From Defluviicoccus sp. (GTDB lineage: Bacteria; Pseudomonadota; Alphaproteobacteria; MPNO01): 47,893 nucleotides of DNA. Of this stretch, positions 45,898 to 47,893 are shown piece by piece. The translations under genes were made by a program, and so were the position numbers. The stretch is from contig JAPPIT010000227.1 of the NCBI GenBank assembly GCA_028820505.1, positions 13,920-61,812 of the forward strand, read 5' to 3'. The stretch's first letter is position 1. Every line of letters begins with the position of its first letter. The notes beneath the pieces were generated by a model. That model was not told the DNA's origin and did no database searches. It saw only the letters and a program-made list of their open reading frames with translations.

Positions 45898-45972
45898 TGG
45901 TGGGCGCGGCTGGGATTGAACCAGCGACCCCTACGATGTCAACGTAGTGCTCTCCCGCTGAGCTACGCGCCC
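45898..45972 (-). tRNA. tRNA-Val (anticodon GAC)
   Basis: Minus strand, 75 bases including an encoded CCA. Acceptor stem GGGCGCG pairs with CGCGCCC; the anticodon stem CTACG/CGTAG encloses loop TTGACAT, so the anticodon is GAC (reads GUC/GUU). The T-arm is GGGTCGCTGGTTCAATCC-like with the conserved TTC. The gene is intact. Confidence 0.95.
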
Positions 45973-46018: not shown

Positions 46019-46068
46019 GTGCGGGCGCGGATGACAGGGCGGGAGCGATCCGCTACACCTTTCCGGCC

Positions 46069-46959
46069 ATGCAGAGTGCCAGCAAGCCGCGTATCGAGGT
46101 CTCCGACCAGCACGAAATCCTGTGGCCCGGCGAGCAGACGGCGCCGATCGTCCTCGCCTCGCCGCACAGCGGCGCCGCCTACCCGGAATCCTTCGTCGCC
46201 GCCTCGCCGCTCGATCCGCTCGACCTCCGCCGGTCGGAGGATTGCTTCGTCGACGAGCTCTGGCTCGGCGCCCAGGCGCTCGGCGTGCCGCTCTTGCGCG
46301 CGGCGTTCCCCCGCGCCTTCGTCGACGCCAACCGCGAGCCCTTCGAGCTCGATCCGGAGATGTTCGAGGACGAGCTTCCGCCATACGTGAACGCCAATTC
46401 GAACCGCGTGGCCGCCGGTCTCGGGACCCTCGCGCGGGTGGTCGCGAGCGGCAAGGAGATCTATGCCGGCAAGCTCCGGTTTTCGGACGCGCTGGAGCGG
46501 ATCGAGACCTGCTACCGGCCTTATCACGCGGCCCTCCGGCGGCTGATCGACGCCACCCGGGACCGGTTCGGCTACTGCATCCTGATCGACTGCCACTCGA
46601 TGCCGTCGGTCGGCGCGCCGATGGACCCCGATGCCGGGCGCGGACGGGCCGACTTCATCTTGGGCGACGGGTTCGGCACCGCCTGCGAAGGCGCGGTCGC
46701 GGACACCGTCGAACGGGCGCTGGAAGGCCACGGCTACCGCGTGACCCGCAACAAGCCCTTCGCCGGCGGCTACACCACGCGGCATTACGGATGCCCCGCG
46801 GAAGGCGTGCATGCGCTGCAGATCGAGGCCAACCGCGCGCTCTACATGGACGAGGATGCGATCGGGCGGCTTCCCGCGCTGGCCGACGTCGCCGGGCACA
46901 TGACATCCGTGGTGTTGGCGCTGATCCGCCTCAGCAGGGTCGACCTGGCCGCCGAATGA
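46069..46959 (+). CDS. N-formylglutamate amidohydrolase family protein
   Basis: 296 residues. It has PIVLASPHSGAAYPESF, RSEDCFVDELWLGA, ILIDCHSMPSVG and GGYTTRHYGCPAEGVHALQIEANRALYM, the metal and substrate motifs of N-formylglutamate amidohydrolases, which release glutamate and formate at the end of histidine degradation. No hut genes are adjacent; many such proteins act on other N-acyl amino acids. The frame is open to 45916, but that would cross the tRNA on the other strand, so I chose ATG 46069. It overlaps the acetyltransferase by four bases. Confidence 0.88.
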   Translation: MQSASKPRIEVSDQHEILWPGEQTAPIVLASPHSGAAYPESFVAASPLDPLDLRRSEDCFVDELWLGAQALGVPLLRAAFPRAFVDANREPFELDPEMFEDELPPYVNANSNRVAAGLGTLARVVASGKEIYAGKLRFSDALERIETCYRPYHAALRRLIDATRDRFGYCILIDCHSMPSVGAPMDPDAGRGRADFILGDGFGTACEGAVADTVERALEGHGYRVTRNKPFAGGYTTRHYGCPAEGVHALQIEANRALYMDEDAIGRLPALADVAGHMTSVVLALIRLSRVDLAAE

Positions 46960-47501
46960 CCGGCGCCGCGCTATCGACGTCCGGGATCGCCGTGCGCGAC
47001 GCCGCGGAAGACGATTTCGCCGCCATCGCCGAGATCTACGCCCGGCATGTCCGGTGCGGCACGGCCTCGTTCGAGATTGAGCCCCCCGGCGCCGATACGC
47101 TGATCGAGCGCTGGCAGAGCGTGCTCGCGGACGGTCTGCCCTACCTGGTGGCCGAGAGCGGCGGCGCGGTGGCGGGCTTCGCCTACGCGACCGTTTACCG
47201 CAGGCGCCTGGCCTACCGCTTCACTGTCGAGAACTCGATTTACGTGCGCCAGGGCGACACGCGGCAGGGGATCGGGGGCGCGCTGATCGAGCCGCTGATC
47301 GGACGCTGCGCGGGGCTGGGCTACCGCCAGATGCTCGCGGTGATCGGCGATTCGGCGAACGCGGCCTCGATCGGCTTCCACAGGCGCCACGGTTTTCGCC
47401 ACGCCGGGACCCTCCCCTCGGTCGGCTACAAGTTCGACCGCTGGGTGGACAGCGTGCTGATGATCCGCCCGCTCGGCGACGGCGACGCCTCGCCGCCCTG
47501 A
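46956..47501 (+). CDS. GNAT N-acetyltransferase (phosphinothricin-acetyltransferase-like)
   Basis: 181 residues. The acetyl-CoA loop is TRQGIGGALIEPLI (R/Q-x-x-G-x-G), preceded by the family marker NSIYVRQGDTRQGIG and followed by VIGDSANAASIGFHRRHGFRHAGTLPSVGYKFDRWVDSVLM. This matches the Pat/MddA type, which acetylates methionine sulfoximine, sulfone or phosphinothricin. The start begins with IAVRDAAEDDFAAIAEIYARHV. The ATG overlaps the upstream stop (ATGA). It probably forms a unit with the amidohydrolase. Confidence 0.9.
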   Translation: MTGAALSTSGIAVRDAAEDDFAAIAEIYARHVRCGTASFEIEPPGADTLIERWQSVLADGLPYLVAESGGAVAGFAYATVYRRRLAYRFTVENSIYVRQGDTRQGIGGALIEPLIGRCAGLGYRQMLAVIGDSANAASIGFHRRHGFRHAGTLPSVGYKFDRWVDSVLMIRPLGDGDASPP

Positions 47502-47530: not shown

Positions 47531-47561
47531 AAAAAAGGACGGCCGCCGGGAGGCGGCCGCC
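47531..47561 (-). terminator. Rho-independent terminator of the candidate sRNA
   Basis: Minus strand: stem GGCCGCC/GGCGGCC with loop TCCC, lengthened by three pairs including one G-U that is stable only on this strand, then a run of six T (plus-strand A run 47531-47536). It also lies just past the convergent acetyltransferase gene. Confidence 0.75.
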
Positions 47562-47631
47562 AAATTGGGAGGAAACGTCCAAGAACGAGAAGATGCATTC
47601 GGCCTCCTTGGACGACGAGACCGGATGCCGC
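47531..47631 (-). ncRNA. Candidate small regulatory RNA with anti-Shine-Dalgarno motif
   Basis: Minus-strand unit of about 100 bases bounded by a promoter (47638-47665) and a terminator (47531-47561). A first hairpin has the perfect stem GTCCAAG/CTTGGAC; next comes the unpaired stretch GTTTCCTCCCAATTT, containing CCTCCC complementary to ribosome-binding sites; then the terminator hairpin with a U6 tail. The same architecture occurs in alphaproteobacterial sRNAs with CCUCCC-type loops (CcsR and alpha-r14 types). An ATG with a perfect AAGGAGG lies inside (47598), but its frame runs through the terminator. I do not assign a known family. Confidence 0.6.
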
Positions 47632-47637
47632 GCGGGG

Positions 47638-47665
47638 AAATTACCCGTGCGGCTGGACGGGTCAA
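47638..47665 (-). promoter_or_regulatory. Sigma-70-like promoter of the candidate sRNA
   Basis: Minus strand: -35 TTGACC (47660-47665), 16-base spacer, -10 TAATTT (47638-47643). Transcription would start near 47631 and run to the terminator. Confidence 0.6.
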
Positions 47666-47893
47666 CGGACAAATTGTCGCGGGGCCCGCGAACGGGAATT
47701 GGGCCCTCCCGGAAGGGTCGGCCGAATCCCGTCCGATCCCTTACGCGTCCGGCGGGTGCGTGCTACAAGACGGCCGGCGCCCGGCCGCACGGCTCGCGGC
47801 GCCGGGCGCGTGATTGGATAATCTGAACGAAATCAACCAATTACCTGCTTATCCCTGAGATTCATCCAGCGATGAGTTTTCGGTACGGGATGG
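47666..47893. other. Non-coding end of the window
   Basis: I see no gene here. It contains an inverted repeat with 9-base arms GCGCCCGGC (47777-47785) and GCCGGGCGC (47801-47809), then an AT-rich stretch (about 47811-47880) that is unusual for this GC-rich genome and probably holds the promoter of a gene beyond the right edge. Confidence 0.4.

Follow-up and report, generated by a model that had tools for sequence, protein, structure and literature searches.

Does the short intergenic stretch near the right-hand end of this Defluviicoccus DNA encode a regulatory RNA and, if so, to which family does it belong and how is it folded? The original prediction for this sequence (47,893 nucleotides in all, here called the window) was a self-contained small RNA (sRNA) gene on the minus strand, carrying an exposed anti-Shine-Dalgarno stretch with which it would act on many mRNAs. 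The sRNA, at approximately 47631 to 47531 on the minus strand, is real at the position and on the strand first given, and its type is already known. The motif GTTTCCTCCC lies at 47576 to 47567 with a terminator behind it, the arrangement is conserved in homologues from the genus, and alphaR8 RNAs are known to act on many mRNAs in this way (PMC12559287). A literature search found no paper on Defluviicoccus sRNAs.

Family membership and gene neighborhood

The features of the locus on which the family assignment draws are as follows.

46063 to 46959, plus strand: N-formylglutamate amidohydrolase (FGase) gene, the usual alphaR8 neighbor (Pfam PF05013, 254.5 bits; synteny)
46956 to 47501, plus strand: GNAT acetyltransferase gene, convergent with the sRNA (Pfam PF00583, E = 2.2e-12)
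47531 to 47561, minus strand: Rho-independent terminator, a 10-bp stem with nine GC pairs (47561 to 47538) followed by T6 (47536 to 47531)
47567 to 47576, minus strand: anti-Shine-Dalgarno seed GUUUCCUCCC, the alphaR8 core (DNA GTTTCCTCCC), recognized by family comparison
47531 to 47631, minus strand: predicted transcript of about 100 nt, its start placed from the -10 element and its end from the terminator
47638 to 47643, minus strand: weak -10 element TAATTT, 3/6 of consensus, with a 16-bp spacer
47660 to 47665, minus strand: -35 element TTGACC, 5/6 of consensus (TTGACC, TTGATC or TTGCGC in genus copies)
47668 to 47678, minus strand: palindrome-like GACAATTTGTC, a candidate regulator site directly upstream of the -35 element, conserved in the genus

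An Rfam search, suggested along with the original prediction, did return an alphaproteobacterial family. When the last 494 bases of the window were searched permissively, the RF00519 (suhB/mmgR) model, whose members include MmgR of Sinorhizobium and SisA-D of Caulobacter, was spanned in full at 47596 to 47525 on the minus strand, with 35.0 bits and E = 1.4e-5. The gathering cut-off of RF00519 is 41 bits, which places the window copy six bits under it, and a scan of the window at gathering thresholds listed tRNA alone. This cut-off is a curator's naming threshold and not a biological trait. A copy from the same genus (G001) scored 40.2 bits, and three of four copies with the same layout from a second family of the order exceeded the cut-off at 43.0, 43.4, and 44.8 bits; the fourth (G016) sits at a contig end, where no RF00519 match was obtained. 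Because every testable biological feature of the family was found, we file the RNA as a divergent alphaR8 member despite its score of 35.0 against 41 bits. Judged from sequence, the curator's score threshold is all that it misses, and we regard its membership in alphaR8 as nearly certain.

Among these features, the family core is a single-stranded 10-mer, UUUCCUCCCU, that follows a weak hairpin (PMC12559287). Of this core, UUUCCUCCC is identical here; as the tenth base, the window has A, the genus has A or C, and the second family has U. A terminator follows directly after the core, as is typical of alphaR8. An FGase gene beside the main copy is a hallmark of the family (PMC12559287); in the window, one GNAT gene lies between FGase and the sRNA. 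By tblastn, the genus and the second family both have FGase close to the sRNA, as do 45 of 96 sampled alphaR8 loci, a count made within the retrieved DNA, in which some loci end early. A tRNA gene (45901 to 45972, minus strand) lies directly upstream of the FGase gene, and in the Defluviicoccus relative G002 a tRNA of the same score likewise adjoins FGase.

All five Defluviicoccus genomes carry the sRNA, for a total of seven copies, two of them in tandem, and four further copies occur in four genomes of the second family. These 11 sequences, which come from closely related groups, formed our comparison set; two other families of the order (f2 and f4), in which no recognizable alphaR8 core was found, lie outside it. 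The tandem copies are those of G002 (L188, G002:C14:29903-30160), where each has its own promoter block and terminator and a third copy stands on contig C31.

Other candidates were set aside. As families for the window RNA, alphar14, BjrC1505, and isrD scored far under their cut-offs in the permissive search, with the alphar14/cuckoo RNA (RF02344) at 12.6 bits against 58.8. Weaker suhB-like matches elsewhere in the genome were rejected as alphaR8 paralogues, since they appear to come from the 3' ends of ssb genes or from an element like BjrC1505. A further order-conserved anti-Shine-Dalgarno element (L170, G000:C220:19432-19512, minus strand; also L179, L180, L182, and L186) consists of ACGTCTCCCAGACGTGAAGCCTCCCTGTT followed by a terminator, or of CATCCTTTTGACGCCTCCCTGTT, and resembles BjrC1505 (RF02356) by eye. 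At L171, L172, L175, and L177, the gene products end like a single-strand-binding protein (acidic residues, then P-F), and behind the genes come TTCCTCC and a terminator, with weak suhB scores; these may possibly represent 3'UTR-derived sRNAs or chance.

The signals that delimit the transcript varied in strength. The terminator is as strong as had been claimed, and in the seven genus copies compensatory changes preserve its stem. A near-consensus promoter had also been proposed, a description that is too strong. The -35 element is close to consensus, and the layout and spacing of the two elements are kept in most relatives, but the -10 element is poor and the promoter was not listed by a promoter scan at its threshold. 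Upstream of the -35 element, six of the seven genus copies carry GCGACAATTTG(T/C)C and the seventh carries GCGTCGATTTGTC; a search for a regulon sharing this palindrome gave a single further exact copy in the genome, inside a coding-like region. The fold of 47643 to 47533 was more stable than that of dinucleotide shuffles (z = -2.7), with 2 of 200 shuffles as good.

Two predicted crossing helices upstream of the seed

Between the predicted start and the seed lie two predicted helices, S1 and S2, made up of the following segments.

47617 to 47628, minus strand: S1 5' strand GCAUCCGGUCUC, at or near the predicted 5' end, covarying with 47606 to 47595
47614 to 47616, minus strand: loop L1, 3 nt (2 to 3 nt in relatives)
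47607 to 47613, minus strand: S2 5' strand GUCCAAG, inside the S1 loop, invariant in all 11 copies of the order
47595 to 47606, minus strand: S1 3' strand GAGGCCGAAUGC, holding most of AAGGAGG, identified by covariation
47584 to 47594, minus strand: loop L3, 11 nt (9 to 12 nt in relatives)
47577 to 47583, minus strand: S2 3' strand CUUGGAC, conserved alphaR8 sequence just before the seed and the exact complement of GUCCAAG

S1 comprises 11 to 12 bp, and in a MAFFT alignment of the 11 copies 8 of 11 pairs changed on both sides, with pairing in 95.7% of cells. The covariation score of the whole structure was 0.402, compared with 0.223 ± 0.024 in shuffles, none of which (0 of 500) reached the observed value, and it dropped to 0.07 to 0.14 when the registers were slid. 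In the genus copies alone, three S1 pairs change on both sides, a number reached by 3 of 500 shuffles. The S1 sequence varies a great deal from one family to the other, yet every copy pairs its own two strands at 11 or 12 of 12 positions (or at 11 of 11), and pairing of S1 strands with their own partners is 94 to 100%, versus 28 to 41% across families. Since S1 begins 5 to 10 nt past the -10 element in the seven genus copies, we place it at or near the predicted 5' end. We hold with high confidence that the S1 stem is real.

S2 corresponds to a 7-bp hairpin in the original prediction (GTCCAAG, 47613 to 47607, with CTTGGAC, 47583 to 47577). The complementarity stands, but we prefer to see the pairing as one of the two helices in a predicted pseudoknot. 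Covariance across relatives had been named as one way to check that stem; compensatory changes were indeed found, but in S1, while S2 is paired in 100% of cells in 11 of 11 copies with an invariant sequence. S2 never varies, and therefore covariation gives no proof of its pairing.

Two further claims concerned AAGGAGG, most of which falls in the 3' strand of S1. It had been suggested that this sequence masks CCUCC to form a self-locking switch. Five base pairs can form in this genome, but most relatives cannot make them; in relatives, the position reads AAGGGGG, AAGGGAA, AAGGAAG, or AAGCGA, tracking the 5' strand of S1 rather than the invariant CCUCC. Over the 11 copies, this pairing was present in 67% of cells with zero compensatory change, and three of the five positions were often unpaired. 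With its bases mostly belonging to S1, such a lock is extremely improbable. An ATG after AAGGAGG also raised the idea of a small protein, either a leader peptide or an mRNA product. The Shine-Dalgarno spacing is good and the frame is open through the terminator, but the ATG is lost in most relatives, neither AAGGAGG nor the frame is conserved, conservation follows the RNA pairing, and the 125-amino-acid frame crosses the terminator to run antisense into the GNAT gene. We give this reading virtually no credence.

The central structural question is whether S1 and S2 form together. They cross each other, and in all 11 copies there is no gap between S2 and S1, L1 is 2 to 3 nt, and L3 is 9 to 12 nt, which we take to be the proportions of a classical H-type pseudoknot. 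By a crude estimate with a rough additive penalty, each of the 11 copies is more stable as the pseudoknot than in its best nested fold, the margin being about 1.3 to 5.3 kcal/mol. On balance, we favor the coexistence of both helices as a pseudoknot.

One alternative is a bistable alphaR8 RNA in which the S1 and S2 hairpins are mutually exclusive and Hfq, a sponge, or a target flips the RNA from one to the other. The two exclude each other in any nested fold, their nested folds in the window RNA are nearly equal (-19.0 and -18.5), the window RNA folded whole without knots favors S2, and S2 lacks covariation. However, the energies are unbalanced in several relatives (-24.7 versus -16.8 in G004 and -19.5 versus -14.6 in G003), and the spacing that permits both helices is kept in all 11 copies, so that we consider such a switch unlikely, though far from negligible.

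A second alternative follows from the wider family. Among 99 sampled alphaR8 copies sharing CTTGGACGTTTCCTCCC (mostly Acetobacteraceae, with other Rhodospirillales), a single one had GTCCAAG within 90 bases upstream. That carrier among the CTTGGACG copies is itself a Defluviicoccus (JAJDVM010000084.1, Defluviicoccus sp. isolate jk18x22bins.41). CUUGGAC is thus conserved without GUCCAAG in the 98 others and does not need this partner, as would be expected if the window RNA were an ordinary alphaR8 with the S1 hairpin alone, its loop GUCCAAG serving as an independent second target-pairing site and its complementarity to CUUGGAC being incidental. Yet a complement of seven out of seven bases that holds its position in all 11 copies, in both families, while the flanking stem has been rewritten, is hardly expected by chance, and we find this explanation distinctly improbable.

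Under the preferred pseudoknot, the knotted 5' part appears to be a structural variant that, in the genomes sampled, is confined to two families of the order. A search for its exact sequence pattern in 385 genomes of the class gave one genome, the window's own. No paper joining mmgR with a pseudoknot was found in the literature searched, although an earlier mention is possible.

Proposed action and candidate targets

Taken as a whole, we think it probable that this locus encodes a trans-acting alphaR8 sRNA of about 100 nt whose 5' part is an H-type pseudoknot. The computations show the family match, synteny, conservation, S1 covariation, and S2 invariance; that the gene is transcribed, that its RNA binds Hfq, that both helices exist together, what is targeted, and what the knot is for are inferences. 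In this model, S1 would form near the predicted 5' end, and its loop would pair as S2 (7 bp) with sequence just before the seed. The knot would probably shield the 5' end and, much as in RydC, keep the seed unpaired next to a stacked helix. The exposed GUUUCCUCCC would then pair with Shine-Dalgarno regions of the GGGAGGAAAC type, blocking translation of a regulon that may be rich in periplasmic solute-binding proteins. Repression would be Hfq-assisted, the sRNA probably being Hfq dependent, and the genome contains an hfq gene (E = 2e-32). The alphaR8 RNA SisA acts with Hfq to repress many mRNAs, to which its 10-mer pairs close to the start codon, and when carbon runs out CrfA titrates SisA (PMC12559287), while MmgR limits PHB granules (PMC7143759).

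The pattern GGGAGGAAA-N3-10-ATG occurred at 14 sites in the genome, compared with 0 for a reversed-pattern control. Ten of these sites start Pfam-annotated genes, six of which encode solute-binding proteins (three DctP and one each of Peripla_BP_6, Peripla_BP_4, and TctC). Where GGGAGG was followed by a base other than A, the fraction was 5 of 26 Pfam-annotated genes (one-sided p = 0.026), in a post hoc comparison made after the first list had been seen and with control genes taken in contig order. Several of these candidate genes keep the 10-mer in related genomes, including one DctP-type gene in four of five. Solute-binding-protein mRNAs may be the main targets, but the enrichment is weak and no more than suggestive.

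The invariant loop could also have a regulatory role. In this quite unlikely scenario, GUCCAAG mimics a target and pairs in cis with the CUUGGAC that is partnerless in other sampled lineages, creating a built-in gate. Long target matches would then have to open the pseudoknot, which would, just as tentatively, make the RNA a target- or signal-selective anti-Shine-Dalgarno regulator. One long match, GGGAGGAAACGUC, precedes the start of a Cu/Zn superoxide dismutase gene in two genus genomes.

In the two species studied, alphaR8 RNAs steer feast-to-famine and storage-polymer control: SisA and CrfA do so in Caulobacter, and MmgR, acting on PHB, in Sinorhizobium (PMC12559287, PMC7143759). In wastewater plants, Defluviicoccus makes its living from alternating anaerobic feed and aerobic famine, storing PHA (PMC9041414). 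If the pseudoknot is correct, a widespread sRNA family has kept its seed while the structure around it was rewired, and the contribution of a pseudoknot to an sRNA could be tested by simple mutation.

Relation to known RNAs

The closest likeness is to MmgR and the RF00519 family, with which the window RNA shares the core GUUUCCUCCC after UUCUUGG(A/G)C, the terminator, and the FGase neighborhood (PMC12559287). It differs in a score just under the cut-off and in having A instead of U after the seed. The RF00519 model, at 77 nt, has a short nested hairpin before the seed, whereas here the 5' partner of that position lies inside the loop of a further stem, as a predicted pseudoknot. SisA-D of Caulobacter crescentus, which are sponged by CrfA (PMC12559287), are similar in their anti-Shine-Dalgarno 10-mer type, in the FGase linkage of the main copy, and in the presence of an Hfq gene in the genome. 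In contrast, the weak hairpin of SisA is replaced here by the predicted S1/S2 arrangement, and the regulon is a predicted one. The alphar14/cuckoo RNAs (NfeR1, with CCUCCUCCC loops) also carry an anti-Shine-Dalgarno motif but, unlike the RNA described here, display it in hairpin loops (PMC3927594). For the knot itself, the nearest functional counterpart is RydC of Escherichia coli and Salmonella, a small Hfq-type sRNA in which a pseudoknot exposes the seed and stabilizes the RNA, and which is destabilized when its knot is broken (PMC4337610). The seed of RydC is at the 5' end, while in Defluviicoccus it lies 3' of the predicted knot, and we draw the likeness purely as an analogy.
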